This document shows, piece by piece, positions 7,549-36,763 of a stretch of DNA of 38,628 bases; the first letter of the stretch is position 1, and each line of letters begins with the position of its first letter. The position numbers and the translations under genes were made by a program. Source of the DNA: Alphaproteobacteria bacterium (GTDB lineage Bacteria; Pseudomonadota; Alphaproteobacteria; SMXQ01); the NCBI GenBank assembly GCA_004356985.1, contig SMXQ01000124.1:1-38628 (forward strand). Reading direction: 5' to 3'. The notes below the pieces were generated by a model, which was not told where the DNA came from, did not search any database, and saw nothing but the letters and a program-made list of their open reading frames with translations.

Positions 7549-10500
7549 CTATATTTCCCGCACCTCGGCGATGCCGGGCACCGCGCGGAGATCGGCGATT
7601 GCCGCCGGAGAGACCGCGTAGCGTCCGGGAATCTCGATTTCCACCTCCTCGCCCGATTCCAGGCCGATGATGAGGTCGACCTCGCCCTTGCCGCCGGCGG
7701 CGTGCGCCATGATATCGCGCAACCGCTCCAAGGCCTCCGCCGCGCTGACCGTTACCTTGAGGCCCGGCGCGGCATGGGCGATGGCCGCGTCCAGGGGCTC
7801 GATGGCCTGGGCGGTGAGCCGCATTCCCTCGCCCTCGCGGCGCGCGTCGGCGCTCACCAACACGTTGGTTCCGGCCTCCAGGAGGTCGCGGGAACGGCCG
7901 AGAATTTCCGAGAAGACGGTGAGCTCGAAGATGCCGGAAGGGTCCGACATTTGGACGAAGGCGAAGCGGTTGCCGCGCGCCGAGGTCCGTTCCTTTTTCG
8001 AGATCACCGTCCCCGCGAGCTTGAGGCGGACATCCCCACCGGCCCCGAGTTGGCCGAGAAGCGCCGACGCGCGAACCACGTGGAGGCGTTCCAGTCTGCT
8101 GCCATAGGCGTCGAGAGGATGGGCCGACAGGTAGAACCCGATGGCCTCGAATTCATGGCGCAGGCGTTCCATGGCCGGCCACGGTGCCACTTCCGCGTAA
8201 CGTGAGGCCGTGGTCTCGCGGTCGCTTTCGCCGTCGAACAGGCTGCCTTGGCCGCTCGCCCGTTCGCTGGCCGCCGCCTGGGCGCGCTGGGTCAACTCGC
8301 CGACGCTGGCCAGCACCTGGGCGCGGTTGGGGTTGAGCCCATCGAAGGTCCCGGCCGAAACCAGGTTTTCGACCTGCCGCTTGGTGACGACTTTTTGATC
8401 GCAGCGGTCGGCGAATTCCAACAGGGTTGCAAAGGGCCCGCCCTTATCCCGCTCCGCCACCAGCGACTCCATGGCCGCGACCCCCACGCCCTTGACGGCG
8501 CCCAGGGCGTAACGGATGGCCCGCGCGCCGGCCACCACTTCCACCGCGAAACGCGCCGTCGAAGCATTGACGTCGGGCGGCAGCAGGGCGATGCCCAGGC
8601 GGTCGAGCTCCTGGCGAAAGATATTCAGCTTGTCGGTGTTGCCCATGTCGAGGGTCATCGAGGCAGCCATGAATTCCACCGGGTAATTGGCCTTGAACCA
8701 GGCCGTCTGGTAGGCGATCAGGGCATAGGCCGCGGCGTGGGACTTGTTGAAGCCATAGCCCGCGAACTTGTCCACCTGCTCGAAGATGTGCCGCGCCGTG
8801 TGCCCCTCGACGCCGCGCGCCACGGCGCCGTCGATGAAGGTCTGGCGCTGGCGGTCCATCTCCGACTTGATCTTCTTGCCCATGGCGCGGCGCAGGATGT
8901 CGGCGCCGCCGAGCGAATAGCCCGAGAGCTCCTGGGCGATTTGCATCACCTGCTCCTGGTAGATCATCACACCGAAGGTTTCCTTGAGAATTCCCTCCAG
9001 GGACGGGTGCAGGTAATCCGGTTTTTCCCGGCCGTGCTTGCGCGCGATATAGCGCGGGATGTTGTCCATGGGGCCGGGGCGGTAGAGCGCCACCAGGGCG
9101 ATGATGTCCTCGAAACAATCGGGTTTGAGGTTGCGCAGCACGTCGCGCATGCCCGAACTTTCCAACTGGAAGACACCGATGGTCTCGCCCTTGGCCATCA
9201 TCGCGTAGGTGGCGGGATCGTCGAGCGGCAGGCTTTCGAGGGCGACGGCGGCTTCGCCGTCCCCGGCGCGCCGCCGGTTGACCAGCGCCAGGGTCTCGGC
9301 CAGCACCGTCAGCGTCTTGAGGCCGAGGAAATCGAATTTCACCAGGCCCGCCGCCTCGACGTATTTCATGGAAAACTGGGTGACCTGCATGTCGGAACGG
9401 GGATCGCGGTAGAGCGGCACCAGTTCCGACAAGGCGCGATCGCCGATCACCACGCCGGCGGCATGGGTCGAGGCGTGGCGGTAGAGTCCCTCGAGCTTGA
9501 GGGCGATATCCATCAGCTTGGCGACGGTTTCATCCTCGTCGCGCATGGTTTGCAGCAGCGGTTCCCCGTCGATGGCCTTGGCCAGGGTCACCGGGTTGGC
9601 CGGGTTGTTGGGCACCAGTTTGCAGATGCGGTCGACCTGGCCGTAGGGCATGGCGAGCACCCGGCCGACATCGCGCAGCACGGCGCGGGCCTGGAGCTTG
9701 CCGAAGGTGATGATCTGGGCGACCCTGTCGGCGCCGTATTTCCGCTGGACGTAGGCGATCACCTCGTCGCGCCGGTCCTGGCAGAAATCGATGTCGAAAT
9801 CGGGCATCGTTATGCGCTCGGGATTGAGGAACCGTTCGAACAGAAGGCCGAAGCGCAAGGGATCCAGATCGGTGATGGTCAGCGCCCAGGACACCACCGA
9901 ACCGGCCCCCGAACCGCGTCCCGGCCCCACCGGGATGCCCGCCTCCTTGGCCCAGCGGATGAAGTCGGCGACGATCAGGAAATAACCGGGAAAGCCCATG
10001 GCTTCGATCACCCCCAGCTCGAATTTGAGCCGTTCGCCATAGGGCCGGGCGGCGGCTTTGCGGGCCGCTTCATCCATGGAATCGGCGAACACCGCGCCGC
10101 TCAGCCGCGCCTCCAACCCCGCCTCGGCCTGGGCGCGAAGCTCTTGGGCCTCGCTCCTTCCGGCCCCGGCGAAGGGCGGCAGGATGGGCGCGCGCTCCGG
10201 CGACGCGAAGGCGCAGCGCCGGGCGATGACCAGGGTATTGGCGATGGCCTCGGGCAGATCGGCGAACAAGGCCTTCATCTCGGCCGGTGTTCGAAAACGG
10301 TAGGTGGGCGTCAGGCGGCGACGCTCGGGATCGGCGACGTGGACGCCTTCGGCGATGGCCAACAGGGCGTCGTGGGCCTCGAACATTCCGACTTCGCTGA
10401 AAAAGACTTCGTTGGTGGCGACCAACGGCAGGTCGTGGGCGTAAGCCAAGTCGATCATCGCCTCTTCGATGCTCTCTTCGTCGGCGACCCCGTGGCGCAT

Positions 10501-27357: not shown

Positions 27358-28368
27358 TCATTGGGGCAGCCATCCGAAGGTGACCAGGGCGATCGACGTC
27401 ACCACCACCCAGAGCAATGAAAGCGGCAGAAATACCTTCCAACCGAGCCGCATCAGCTGGTCATAGCGATAGCGGGGGAAGGTCGCCCGCACCCACAGGA
27501 ACAGGAACAACACGAAGGATATCTTGGCCGCGAACCAGATCGGCCCCGGCACCCAGGTGAAGGGCGCGACGCCGAACGGCGCCAACCAACCGCCCAGGAA
27601 CAGGATCGTCGTCAACGCGCTCATCAGGATCATGTTGGCGTATTCGCCGAGGAAGAAGAGCGCGAAAGGCATCGACGAATATTCGACGTTGAAGCCCGCC
27701 ACCAGCTCCGATTCCGCCTCGGGCAGGTCGAAGGGCGCGCGGTTGGTCTCGGCCAACGTCGAGACGAAGAAGATCACGAACATGGGAAGCAGCGGCACCG
27801 CGAACCACACGGTCTGTTGCGCCATCACCACCTTGGTGAGGTTGAGAGAACCCACGCACAGCAGCACCGTGACGATGACGAAACCCATGGAAATTTCGTA
27901 GGACACCATCTGTGCGGCCGAGCGCAAGGCGCCCAGGAAGGCGTATTTCGAATTCGATGCCCAGCCCGCCATGATGACCCCGTACACGCCCATCGACGAG
28001 ATGGCGAAAAGGTAGAGGATGCCGACGTTGATATCCGCCAGCACCACGCCCTCATCGAAGGGAATGACGGCCCAGGCCACCAGGGCCAGAACAAAGGTCA
28101 CCATGGGGGCCAGCATGAACACCACCTTGTTGGCCCCGGATGGGATCACCGTTTCCTTGACGAACAGCTTCAACCCGTCGGCCAAGGGCTGCAACAGCCC
28201 GAACCACCCCACCACGTTGGGCCCCTTGCGCAGCTGCATGGCGGCGATGACCTTGCGTTCGGCCAAGGTCAAGTACGCCACGGCCACCAGAAGCGGCACC
28301 AATATGGCGAAGATCTTGGCGACGATAATGGCGCCGGGCCAAACGTAAAGCGACCAGAATTCAGCCAT
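27358..28368 (-). CDS. nuoH: NADH-quinone oxidoreductase subunit H
   Basis: Membrane subunit that forms the quinone chamber with NuoB and NuoD; 336 residues with eight to nine helices. Typical stretches are [39 protein letters not shown] and [21 protein letters not shown]. The start at 28368 overlaps the nuoG stop by 8 bases. Confidence 0.97.
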
Positions 28369-30424
28369 CGGTGCCCGTCTTCTCAGCCCCGCGGGCCAAC
28401 GATTCGGTGCATCGCGCCATGGTGACCGACGCCCGGCTGATGGGGTCGGTCATGTAGAAATTGTCGATGGTTGCCACGAAGGGCGCCCGGTCCATGTCGC
28501 CGGCGGCGCCGAAGGCGGCCCACGGGGCCCCCACCACCGCGTCAAGGGCGCCGAAGATGGCGTTGGACTCGACCATGCGGGCGCGCAAGGCGTCGATGGA
28601 ATCATAGGCAAGGGTCTTACCCAGGACCGCCGAGAAGGCGCGGATAATGGCCCAATCCTCCTTGGCCTCGCCCGGCGGGAAATGGGCCGCCAGGGCGCGC
28701 TGCACCCGGCCTTCGGTATTGACATAGGTGGCGTTCTTTTCGGTGTAGGCGGCGCCCGGCAGGATCACGTCGGCACGATTGGCGCCGGCATCCCCGTGGT
28801 GGCCTTGGTAGACCACGAAGGCATCGCCCAGGCCCGTCATGTCGATCTCGTCGGCGCCCAACAGCCAGACCAGGCCGATCTCCCCGGATTTGGCGCCGGC
28901 CAGGATGCCGCCGACATCGCGGCCCCCGTCGCCCGGCAGGACTCCGAGCTCCATGCCCCCCACCCGGCTCGCCGCGCGCTGCAGCAGGTTGAACCCGTTC
29001 CAGTCGTCACCGACACAGCCGAAGCGCTCGGCGACCGCGCGGGCGGCGAATAGGACCGCCGCCCCGTCGGCGCGCGCGACCGCGCCCGACCCCAAGATCA
29101 CCATGGGCCGCCGGGCGTCGTCCAGGCGCGCGCAAAATTCGTGGCGGCCCTCGGCGACGGCGCTGAGCGTCTCCGGCCCGGGCCCAAGATGGGTCGTTGG
29201 GTAGGTGAGGTCGGCATCCTCGCCGATGACGCCGATGGGGAATCCGCCGCGCGCCCAACGCCCGCGCAAACGGGTATTGATGATGGCCGCCTCAAAGCGC
29301 GGATTGGCGCCGATGATCAGGCAGGCATCGGCGGCGTCGATGCCGGCGATGGTGGAATTGAAAAGCCAGGCGGCCCGCGCGTCGCGCCCGATCTTGGCGC
29401 CGTCCTGGCGGCAATCGATGTGGGGCGAGCCCAGCGCCGCCATGAGGTCCTTCAGCGCCGCCATGGATTCGCAATCGCAGAGGTCGCCGGCGATGGCGGC
29501 GACGGCGGTGGGATCGAGTTCCTTGATGCGCCCGGCGATGGCGGTGAAGGCCTCGTCCCAGCTGGCGGCGGTGAGCTTTCCGCCGCGGCGCACATAGGGC
29601 CGGTCCAGGCGCTGGCGCATGAGCCCGTCATAGGCGAAACGGGTCTTGTCGGAGATCCATTCCTCGTTCACGTCCTCGTTGAGGCGGGGCAGGATTCGCT
29701 TGACCTCGGCGCCCAGGGTATCGACGCGGATGTTGGACCCCACCGCGTCCAGGACGTCCACGGATTCGGCCTTGCGCAATTCCCAGGACCGGGCGGTAAA
29801 GGCGAAAGGCTTGGAGGTGAGCGCGCCCACCGGGCAAAGGTCGATCATGTTGCCCGACATTTCCGAGGTGATCGCCTTGCCCACAGTGGTGACGATCTCC
29901 ATGTGCTCGCCGCGGCCGGTGGCGCCCAGTTCTTCGACGCCGGCGATTTCGGTGGCGAAACGGATGCAGCGGGTGCAGTGGATGCAGCGCGTCATCTCGG
30001 TCTTGATCAGCGGGCCGAAATCCTTGTCGGACACGGCACGCTTGTTTTCCGCGAACCGCGAGCGGTCCAAGCCGTAGTACAGCGCCTGGTCCTGGAGATC
30101 GCATTCGCCGCCCTGGTCGCAGATCGGGCAATCCAGCGGGTGGTTGATGAGAAGCATCTCCATCACTCCGCGCCGGGCCTTTACCACCATTTCCGAATTG
30201 GTCTTCACCTCCATGCCGTCGCTCACCGGCATGGCGCACGACGCCGCCGGCTTGGGCGGGCCGGGGGCGACCTCGACCAGGCACATGCGGCAATTGCCGG
30301 CGATGGACAGCCGGTCGTGGTAACAGAAGCGCGGAATCTCGACCCCCGCCTGTTCGCAGGCCTGCAGCACCGTGGTGCCGGGCTCGACCTCGATCTCGGT
30401 GCCGTCGATGGTGACTTTGAGCAT
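28361..30424 (-). CDS. nuoG: NADH-quinone oxidoreductase subunit G
   Basis: Largest peripheral subunit (687 residues), relaying electrons through several clusters. The N-terminal ferredoxin domain has Cys34, 45, 48 and 63 for a 2Fe-2S centre. Then come [18 protein letters not shown] (His and three Cys) and [10 protein letters not shown] for 4Fe-4S centres. The rest is the molybdopterin-oxidoreductase-like domain without cofactor-binding features. The ATG at 30424 has no strong ribosome-binding site. Normally nuoG follows nuoF directly, but here two extra genes intervene, with an 11-base direct repeat just before the start. Confidence 0.96.
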
Positions 30425-30427
30425 CAG

Positions 30428-30457
30428 GGATTACCAATGAGAATAAGGATTGCCAAT
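30428..30457. repeat. Short direct repeat between the inserted cassette and nuoG
   Basis: GGATTACCAAT (30428-30438) and GGATTGCCAAT (30447-30457) match in 10 of 11 bases and lie eight bases apart, exactly filling the gap between the small-protein stop and the nuoG start. They could be a scar of the cassette insertion or a regulatory site. Confidence 0.5.
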
Positions 30458-30458
30458 A

Positions 30459-30665
30459 CTATTTCTCGCCGCCACCAGACGAGCTTCCTGAACCTCCGCC
30501 CCCGCTCCCCGACTTGGGCTTCGAGGTCGGCGGAGTCGATGACCCAGACGTGGTCGGTTGATAACCCCCACTCTCAATGATGAGCCTTGTTCCAACGAGC
30601 CTATCAGTCCAACTTTTTTTGGGAGCAGAAGGTTTTGGCGGGGTCTTTATCGGCGTATCAGCCAT
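30459..30665 (-). CDS. Small Ser/Gly-tailed protein of unknown function
   Basis: 68 residues from ATG 30665, which has a strong AGGAGA seven bases upstream; the next upstream ATG (30725) is inside the preceding gene. The N-terminal 16 residues are rich in Pro and Lys, followed by a more ordered core KKSWTDRLVGTRLIIESGGY, and then a tail of Ser, Gly, Thr and Pro with poly-Gly/Ser runs. No membrane segment or signal is visible. It begins 22 bases after the DUF6338-like gene and looks like its partner. It is unrelated to any complex I subunit I know. Confidence 0.7.
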   Translation of the reverse strand: MADTPIKTPPKPSAPKKSWTDRLVGTRLIIESGGYQPTTSGSSTPPTSKPKSGSGGGGSGSSSGGGEK

Positions 30666-30687
30666 ACGTTGTCTCCTGGCGTTGTGG

Positions 30688-31278
30688 TTACTCGGGGTCA
30701 AACACCTTGATGTGCTTGTAGTCATCTGGCCTCAGAATAATTCCGGGACTACCGTTTAGTGGATTAATGAAATTACCCGAGAGATCGATTTCCCAAAGTT
30801 CTTCGATATAGATATGGCCTGGCTCCGGGTAGGCGCTGGCATAGGAATGAATATCGTATCGGCCACCCACGACGGTGCCATCTTTAAGTGTGAGTTGAAC
30901 CCAGCAGGCACTGCCTTTCTTGAAAAAATAATCCCAGGCCGTCTTTGGTTGCAGACCAATCCAGTGCCATTTTTCTGCAACGCGGAGGAGCCACACCATT
31001 AGAATTGGCCAGATCACGGGCATGACAATGAAACACACAACGACGATGCCCCAAGCCCGCGAGGGGTGAAGCGCCACGAACCCATCGACAAAAAGAAATT
31101 GTATTGGCCAAATGAGGATTACAAAGTTCAGCAAACTAAAGCAGATCGCTTCCAGAACCTTGTCACGCAGCAAGTGTGATTCTTGTGGCACCTTTAAACC
31201 ATAAACATACATGGAAATCGCGCCAGGCAACACGAACCCGGTGAATAGCAAGAGATACTCGATCTTCAACTCCGGCAT
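30688..31278 (-). CDS. DUF6338-like membrane protein inserted in the nuo operon
   Basis: 196 residues. Three or so hydrophobic segments occupy the first half (YLLLFTGFVLPGAISMYVYG, a segment near 45-70, and WGIVVVCFIVMPVIWPILMVW). A soluble C-terminal domain of about 85 residues is predicted to be beta-rich, with CWVQLTLKDGTVVGGRYD and IYIEELWEIDLSGNF, reminiscent of a small SH3/Sm-like barrel. I associate this architecture with DUF6338, whose function is unknown. The gene is AT-richer than nuoF and nuoG on either side. It starts 12 bases after the nuoF stop with a GGGGG ribosome-binding run that belongs to the nuoF end. Confidence 0.78.
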   Translation of the reverse strand: MPELKIEYLLLFTGFVLPGAISMYVYGLKVPQESHLLRDKVLEAICFSLLNFVILIWPIQFLFVDGFVALHPSRAWGIVVVCFIVMPVIWPILMVWLLRVAEKWHWIGLQPKTAWDYFFKKGSACWVQLTLKDGTVVGGRYDIHSYASAYPEPGHIYIEELWEIDLSGNFINPLNGSPGIILRPDDYKHIKVFDPE

Positions 31279-31290
31279 AATGGCCCCCGC

Positions 31291-32583
31291 CTACGCCGCG
31301 CGGCCGCCCTTGGCGGCCTGGGTGGTTTCGATGCGCTTTTCGATCTCCGGCCGGAAATGCCGGATCAGGCCCTGGATCGGCCAGGCCGCCGCGTCCCCCA
31401 GCGCGCAGATGGTATGGCCTTCGATCTCGGTGGTCACTTCCAGAAGCATGTCGATTTCCGATAGTTCCGCCCGGCCTTGCACCAGGCGTTCCATCACCCG
31501 CCACATCCAGCCCGTGCCCTCCCGGCAGGGCGTGCATTGGCCGCAGCTTTCATGCATGTAGAATTTCGACAGCCGGGCGATGGCGGCGATGATATCGGTG
31601 GACTTGTCCATGACGATGACCGCCGCCGTGCCCAAGCCCGACTTCACGTCCTTCAGGGCGTCGAAATCCATATGCACGGTTTCGCAGATCGACTTGGGGA
31701 TCAACGGCACCGAAGAGCCGCCGGGAATCACCGCCAGCAGATTGCCCCAGCCGCCGCGCACCCCCCCGGCATGCTTTTCGATCAGCTCTTTCAAGGGGAT
31801 GCCCATTTCTTCTTCCACATTGCAGGGCTCATTGACGTGCCCCGAGATGCAGAACACCTTGGTGCCGGTGTTGTTGGGCCGGCCGAGACCGGCGAACCAC
31901 GCGGCGCCACGGCGGAGGATCGTCGGCGCGACGGCGATGGTCTCGACGTTGTTGACCGTGGTCGGGCATCCGTAGAGTCCGGCGGCCGCGGGAAACGGCG
32001 GCTTCAGGCGCGGCTGGCCCTTCTTGCCCTCGAGGCTTTCGAGGAGCGCCGTTTCCTCGCCGCAGATATAAGCGCCGGCGCCGCGGTGGAGGTAAAGGTC
32101 GAAATCGAAGCCCGAACCGCAGGCATCGGGGCCGATCAGGCCGGCCGCGTAGGCCTGGTCGATGGCCGCCTGAAGGTTCTCGGCCTCGCGATAAAACTCG
32201 CCGCGGATGTAGATATAGGCGGCATGGGCGTTCATGGCGGAAGAGGCTAACAAAGCCCCTTCCACCAGCTTATGGGGGTCGTTGCGCATCATGTCCCGGT
32301 CCTTGCAGGTGCCGGGTTCGCCTTCGTCGGCGTTGATGACCAGGTAATTGGGCCGTCCGTCCTTGGAATCCTGGGGCATGAAGGACCATTTCACCCCCGC
32401 CGGAAAACCCGCGCCGCCGCGTCCGCGCAGGCCCGATTCCTTGATCTCCTCGATGATCCAGGCCGCGCCCTTGGCCATGATGGCCTTGGTCCCGTCCCAG
32501 TCGCCGCGGGCGCGGGCGCCGTCCAGCCGCCAATCCTCGAAGCCGTAGAGGTTGGTGAAGACGCGGTCCTTGTCGGCAAGCAT
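31291..32583 (-). CDS. nuoF: NADH-quinone oxidoreductase subunit F
   Basis: NADH-binding subunit with FMN and cluster N3, 430 residues. [10 protein letters not shown] (54-63) binds NADH; a second Gly-rich stretch, [23 protein letters not shown], contacts FMN. The 4Fe-4S ligands are in [12 protein letters not shown], with the fourth Cys in [12 protein letters not shown]. It starts one base after the nuoE stop. The C-terminus is complete and ends in GRAA before the inserted cassette, so the insertion did not break the gene. Confidence 0.97.
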
Positions 32584-36461: not shown

Positions 36462-36507
36462 GTTAACCTGATGTCTGCTTGTAGCCATAAGCGGACATGA
36501 GGTTAAC
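36462..36507. repeat. Palindromic repeat copy 1 (extended)
   Basis: A 46-base inverted repeat with 19-base arms around the loop GTAGCCAT. The inner core is ATGTCTGCTT/AAGCGGACAT (one G-T pair); the outer ends are GTTAACCT/AGGTTAAC, perfect, with a single G-G mismatch between. It is the longest of four related palindromes in the last 2.2 kb. Confidence 0.85.
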
Positions 36508-36541
36508 AAGCCCGAGGGCCGATCATCTCGCCGTTAAGGTT

Positions 36542-36569
36542 ATGTCTGCTTTTAGCCAGAAGCGGACGT
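36542..36569. repeat. Palindromic repeat copy 2
   Basis: ATGTCTGCTT, loop TTAGCCAG, AAGCGGACGT. Same core and same orientation as copy 1, which ends 35 bases to the left. Its right arm runs directly into the transposase remnant, and its ATG gives that remnant an artificial start codon. Confidence 0.85.
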
Positions 36570-36763
36570 TGGCCTTGCCGAAGGAGGTGGAACACTGGTC
36601 GCTAACCACGCTACGGGAAAAGCTGGTGAAGATTGGAGCCAAGGTCGTCCGCCATGGCCGCTATGTTACTTTCCAATTGGCCGAGGTTGCCGTGCCAAGA
36701 AGCTTGTTCCAGAAAATCTTGGGCCTGATTGATGATCTACGACGAAGACCCGTTCCGGCGTAG
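36563..36763 (+). pseudogene. IS1380-family transposase, C-terminal remnant
   Basis: The frame starting in the repeat (ATG 36542) reads into RTLALPKEVEHWSLTTLREK, then LVKIGAKVVRHGRYVTFQLA and EVAVPRSLFQKIL, ending with a stop at 36763. From memory this is the end of IS1380-type (DDE group 1) transposases, where LRTLALP precedes HWSLTTLREKL. Everything before Arg-Thr-Leu, including the DDE catalytic core, is missing, so the gene is dead. The family call is by recall and needs a search. Confidence 0.7.

Follow-up and report, generated by a model that had tools for sequence, protein, structure and literature searches.

The window, meaning the whole stretch of 38,628 nucleotides that was analysed, derives from a draft genome of 2.69 Mb in 169 contigs and carries a two-gene cassette within the complex I (nuo) operon. 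On the minus strand, nuoF (31291-32583, 430 aa, intact) is followed by a gene for a DUF6338 membrane protein (30688-31278, 196 aa, intact), a 68-codon open reading frame (ORF) rich in Pro, Gly and Ser (30459-30665, minus strand), and nuoG (28361-30424, 687 aa, intact), with gaps of 12, 22 and 34 bases between successive genes. An earlier note on this DNA had placed the cassette between intact nuoF and nuoG with these junctions and all genes on one strand, and this description was exact. Its reading of the larger product as a DUF6338-like membrane protein was likewise borne out by the match to Pfam family PF19865 (139.1 bits, E=1.9e-40; residues 8-195 against profile positions 7-202 of 205). 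For membership the score must exceed the curated cut-off, 26.5 bits, across the length of the family, and the window protein lies far above it.

A Pfam search of both proteins matched no family to the 68-aa partner. The ORF, which lies 22 bases past the DUF6338 stop, contains the motif GGYQP; with a GYxP/Pro-rich small ORF directly downstream of DUF6338 on the same strand, the window pair is an instance of the two-gene module described here. The earlier note gave the length of the small protein correctly and took KKSWTDRLVG as its core. The length stands; the core does not, as the conserved segment is RLIIExGG(Y/F)xP followed by a Pro/Gly/Ser tail. In the window this segment reads RLIIESGGYQP (30555-30587, minus strand), and its counterparts in related loci are RLIIERGGFRP (L105), LIIEKGGYRP (L096) and RIEKGGYVP (L097).

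The composition of the cassette differs from that of the operon around it. Its GC content is 0.49-0.52 against 0.60-0.68 in the surroundings, confirming that it is AT-richer, and GC3 is 0.574 in DUF6338 and 0.551 in the small ORF, against a minimum of 0.777 in the nuo genes (156 windows of 591 nt). A site search of the region found no promoter- or terminator-like site belonging to the cassette; the only terminator-like site falls within nuoG, at a frequency no higher than expected by chance, and an Rfam search of the region returned sub-threshold chance matches only. Because the gaps are tight and no such site of its own was found, the cassette probably uses the transcription of the operon and is expressed by read-through. 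Two further features were observed in the window: an imperfect direct repeat, ATTGGCAATCC / ATTGGTAATCC, at 30425-30458 just ahead of nuoG, and an 88-aa ORF on the plus strand (36497-36763) that, judged by eye, resembles the C-terminus of a transposase from an insertion sequence.

Among 11 genomes of the window's order, DUF6338 is present in the window's own genome and absent from the 10 relatives, and nuoF is directly followed by nuoG in all nine relatives with a readable junction. In the closest relative (L003), whose NuoF is 95% identical and whose NuoG is 94% identical over the first 491 residues, the junction is empty and the spacer reads GCGGGGGC-ACCCAGGGGAAAAA. The first eight spacer bases after the nuoF stop (GCGGGGGC) are common to both genomes; the remaining 14 (ACCCAGGGGAAAAA), which included the former nuoG ribosome-binding region, are missing from the window, where 858 new bases stand instead (30425-31282, minus strand). 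Both nuoF and nuoG keep an even level of identity to L003 right up to the junctions, giving no hint of gene conversion beside the insert. A repeat search at the insert found no target-site duplication, terminal repeats or transposon ends, and no recombinase or target-site duplication accounting for entry into the operon was found.

The pair is foreign to this operon, since nuoF and nuoG are adjacent in relatives and its GC3 lies far below that of the nuo genes. The horizontal acquisition proposed in the earlier note is thus supported by absence from the order, an empty site in relatives and foreign composition; the pair very probably reached the nuoF-nuoG junction horizontally, and its recent arrival in this operon is well supported. 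The note's own alternative, an old operon member shared by the order, is not supported, as close relatives are without the pair and GC3 differs.

The pairing itself was surveyed across DUF6338 loci gathered by family search and by profile search of genome contigs, plasmids, phages, viral contigs and E. coli genomes. A small ORF (28-120 codons) that begins close to the DUF6338 stop and carries a strict GYQP/GFRP/GWQP-type motif follows DUF6338 in 33 of 46 loci, against a background of 1.1% at 10,360 random positions in the same DNA scored with the same motif, which was derived from the survey data. A looser motif gave 41 of 46 loci against 9.6%, and 34 of 39 in a smaller set of loci. In unrelated loci, then, DUF6338 recurs with one kind of small protein directly after it, and the pairing is almost certainly conserved. 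Typical partners are MSDTKRSYKEDGYTPIEKGYQPKNDLANNGFQPSKQTSQPAPPPKKP from an E. coli prophage and, in Scalindua, a protein containing ...EKGYQPTQGNIDTSKPPQGGSGV.... Some DUF6338 copies stand alone or have no recognisable partner (L088, L091), and a divergent DUF6338 subfamily (L072-L074, L090, L095) also has small Pro-rich ORFs downstream. A second Pro-rich partner type was seen after DUF6338 in L072, L073 and L074, comprising ORFs of about 40 aa of the form MAKEP...KPPPPPPPPKKK.

Close pairs among the relatives of the partner give dN/dS values of 0.05-0.31, demonstrating purifying selection. This conservation and selection remove the doubt, raised in the earlier note, that the small frame is a gene at all. 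An assembly chimera or a spurious small ORF, which the fragmentation of the draft might suggest, is hardly credible, given that independent genomes hold a related pair at the same junction and that the small ORF is conserved and selected.

Proteins probably of this type have been seen before. Mass spectrometry identified Pro-rich small proteins whose genes lie with a DUF6338 gene in the Pseudomonas stutzeri Pstu14405_12030 operon (PMC10433244), which provides independent evidence that such partners are translated. The same study found no conservation of the three P. stutzeri partners outside that species and regarded them as possible de novo genes, whereas in our survey, which did not include those three sequences, DUF6338 is followed by a GYxP/Pro-rich partner in several phyla. 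The P. stutzeri proteins likely belong to the GYxP family, and the conserved partners speak against reading partners of this kind as de novo genes. A peptide-based antimicrobial or signalling system could also be considered, in which the small Pro-rich proteins would be the product and DUF6338 an exporter or immunity protein: one to three divergent partners lie in tandem at a locus (L014, L097), the P. stutzeri study detected the small proteins but no DUF6338 protein, and biosynthetic clusters and antimicrobial proteins were named as possibilities (PMC10433244). However, the surroundings of the pair have no recurring export ATPase, protease or modification enzyme, the partners are hydrophilic and they show no obvious leader peptide, which leaves this explanation distinctly improbable.

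DUF6338 is patchily distributed, scoring above the cut-off in 15 of 385 genomes of the class and 20 of 399 genomes of the phylum. Carriers include Pseudomonadota, Thermodesulfobacteriota, Planctomycetota, Ignavibacteriota and others, as assigned in tree listings, together with phages and plasmids. Scanning genome contigs with the window DUF6338 protein alone found no relative; a four-sequence alignment of closer members recovered 20 loci in the genome-contig scan.

Several settings lie among defence or mobile genes. On a Proteus conjugative plasmid the module follows tnsE of a Tn7-like element and precedes TIR and caspase genes, and on Acinetobacter plasmids it lies 10-14 bases past an E1-E2/JAB gene. 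In a Magnetococcales BREX-2 operon (L106:4783-5560), DUF6338 and its partner lie between pglW and pglX, overlapping the pglW stop, and are possibly an unreported optional BREX-2 component. A Klebsiella phage and E. coli prophages also carry the module, the latter with a TIR-domain gene nearby in two cases.

Other copies occupy housekeeping operons and lie on the operon's own strand. The nuoF/nuoG slot is filled in the window, L096 and L105, and in L108 (labelled Candidatus Symbiobacter) the module follows nuoF, with nuoG no longer adjoining. Further slots are nuoK/nuoL (L067), glyA/nrdR (L101 and L103, with a four-base overlap between the partner and the nrdR start), grpE/dnaK (L111, L084), guaB/rsmB (L100) and the position before argH (L109, L112). 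These make six distinct housekeeping slots when guaA is left out; in L099 the module lies downstream of guaA, and a BrnT/BrnA toxin-antitoxin pair comes directly after it (L099:6909-7440). We claim no slot frequency, because the loci are a biased sample. Searching the orders of two other carriers revealed no additional nuo case, and further module copies stand alone, outside such operons. The nuo operon of L108 (a region also covered by L069:1320-7160) is fragmented, with two foreign genes between nuoE and nuoF and about 200 bases of palindromic repeats after nuoF. The motif GGTAATCCC from the window repeat also occurs in these palindromic repeats, possibly by coincidence.

In a tree of 36 DUF6338 proteins, all four nuoF/G copies fall into a single clade (98/96), and the nuoK/L copy sits on a long branch in a distant group; the nuo operon was therefore probably entered at least twice. 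Since the four nuoF/G copies share a clade across distant alphaproteobacterial lineages, a single entry into the slot may have been passed down in them, and the pair could be an old nuo operon member lost from most lineages. Against this, the window's relatives have neither the pair nor a remnant, the composition is foreign, the other three occupants of the slot have a broken DUF6338, and a separate lineage sits in nuoK/L; we consider such an origin quite improbable. The nuoF/G slot may have been filled a single time with later losses, or the module may be passed on through flanking homology. The damage comprises an in-frame stop in L096, a frameshift in L105 and the loss of the 5' part in L108, with the partner ORF intact in each, as it is on a Pantoea isolate plasmid with a frameshifted DUF6338. 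This asymmetry is suggestive only and not significant, as length alone predicts it (591 versus about 200 bases).

The pair shows no conserved association with nuo genes such as would mark a complex I subunit or accessory gene: the nuo operons of relatives lack it and most copies lie outside nuo. A role in complex I assembly or as an accessory factor, which presence inside the nuo operon in five genomes might suggest, is very improbable in view of the many non-respiratory operons, phages and plasmids that carry the module. More generally, the tie to respiration entertained in the earlier note found no support, since the module also sits in BREX-2, prophages, grpE/dnaK, glyA/nrdR and elsewhere.

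An AlphaFold2 model of DUF6338 built from 12 sequences (mean pLDDT 78, pTM 0.50) comprises three long helices and a C-terminal beta-barrel. In the window, the predicted membrane helices span residues 6-29, 37-62 and 72-103 by the model's secondary structure (codons at 30970-31263, minus strand), and the barrel about residues 113-193 (30700-30942, minus strand). The top Foldseek PDB hits for the barrel are nearly all Sm/LSm domains (spliceosomal, archaeal and LSm14), the best with E 0.025 and probability 0.99. Among ten DUF6338 members, none matched Pfam LSM and one touched SM-ATX, at E 0.053 only; alignment with the Hfq profile was not significant, and sequence searches found no solved structure. 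As the Hfq and MscS profile comparisons were not significant, the barrel may tentatively be called Sm-like by fold resemblance, homology not being implied.

This resemblance would also suit a membrane-anchored Sm-like regulator that binds RNA or peptides in normal physiology rather than conflict, for instance in membrane stress or the local control of mRNA, with the Pro-rich partners as ligands. Both the Foldseek and SM-ATX matches and the frequent housing of the module in growth operons fit such a regulator. Patchy presence, carriage by phages and plasmids and frequent breakage instead mark an accessory gene, and the regulator appears improbable.

By a modest balance of probability, we favour the view that the cassette represents a widespread, horizontally mobile two-gene module of conflict type that uses the nuo promoter. 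Its larger component would be DUF6338, in which three membrane helices carry an Sm-like barrel, and its smaller component one or several short, disordered, Pro-rich GYxP proteins; the window copy would have been spliced recently into the nuoF-nuoG spacer and be expressed by read-through from the nuo promoter. For function and mechanism, we infer the following from genomic context and modelling. The BREX-2, E1-E2/JAB, TIR/caspase and prophage settings suggest that the module may act in conflicts with phages or mobile elements, in the manner of abortive infection, exclusion or toxin-antitoxin systems, rather than in respiration; we hold this role with slightly less than even confidence. LSm14-type LSm domains bind short linear peptides, and the Foldseek hits include a solved case of this, 6f9w. 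The barrel is on this ground proposed to hold the GYxP/Pro-rich segment of the partner, which would thereby restrain the membrane protein, a mechanism that we regard as doubtful. Also rather unlikely is the broader proposal of an undescribed conflict system in which an oligomeric membrane protein with cytosolic Sm-like barrels is restrained by disordered Pro-rich microproteins, spreading without mobility genes of its own inside housekeeping and defence operons and on their promoters.

What is newly recognised is the identity of the pair as a conserved DUF6338-GYxP module, which is real and not part of complex I. An anonymous domain and an easily unannotated frame thus become a defined, testable two-gene module, itself well supported, across several phyla, phages and plasmids. 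Its presence in at least six core-metabolism and chaperone operon slots, with no visible mobility genes, poses the question of how cassettes of this kind get into operons and what keeps them there. Our literature searches found no report of operon-dwelling DUF6338 pairs and nothing on point concerning operon-hitchhiking cassettes and PF19865.

No model in PADLOC 2.0, NCBIfam or PHROGs matches either protein, and the PADLOC result sets aside identity with a known anti-phage system. In MscS-type channels an Sm-like beta domain comes after three helices, an arrangement resembling the one predicted for DUF6338; however, DUF6338 has no sequence or profile similarity to them and no room for the C-terminal cage domain, and comparison with a profile of 16 MscS-type sequences (hhalign probability 0.1) speaks against an MscS channel. 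Toxin-antitoxin modules such as BrnT/BrnA are alike in being two small co-oriented genes that are mobile, patchy and often broken, and the DUF6338 module is also found beside toxin-antitoxin and defence genes. The module differs in that its partner lies downstream and matches no DNA-binding domain family, and in that no known toxin-antitoxin family matches. With Pfam DUF6338 (PF19865) the relation is one of identity, the larger window protein being a clear member; to that entry, which gives no function, the present analysis adds a putative Sm-like barrel, a partner and an operon-dwelling habit.
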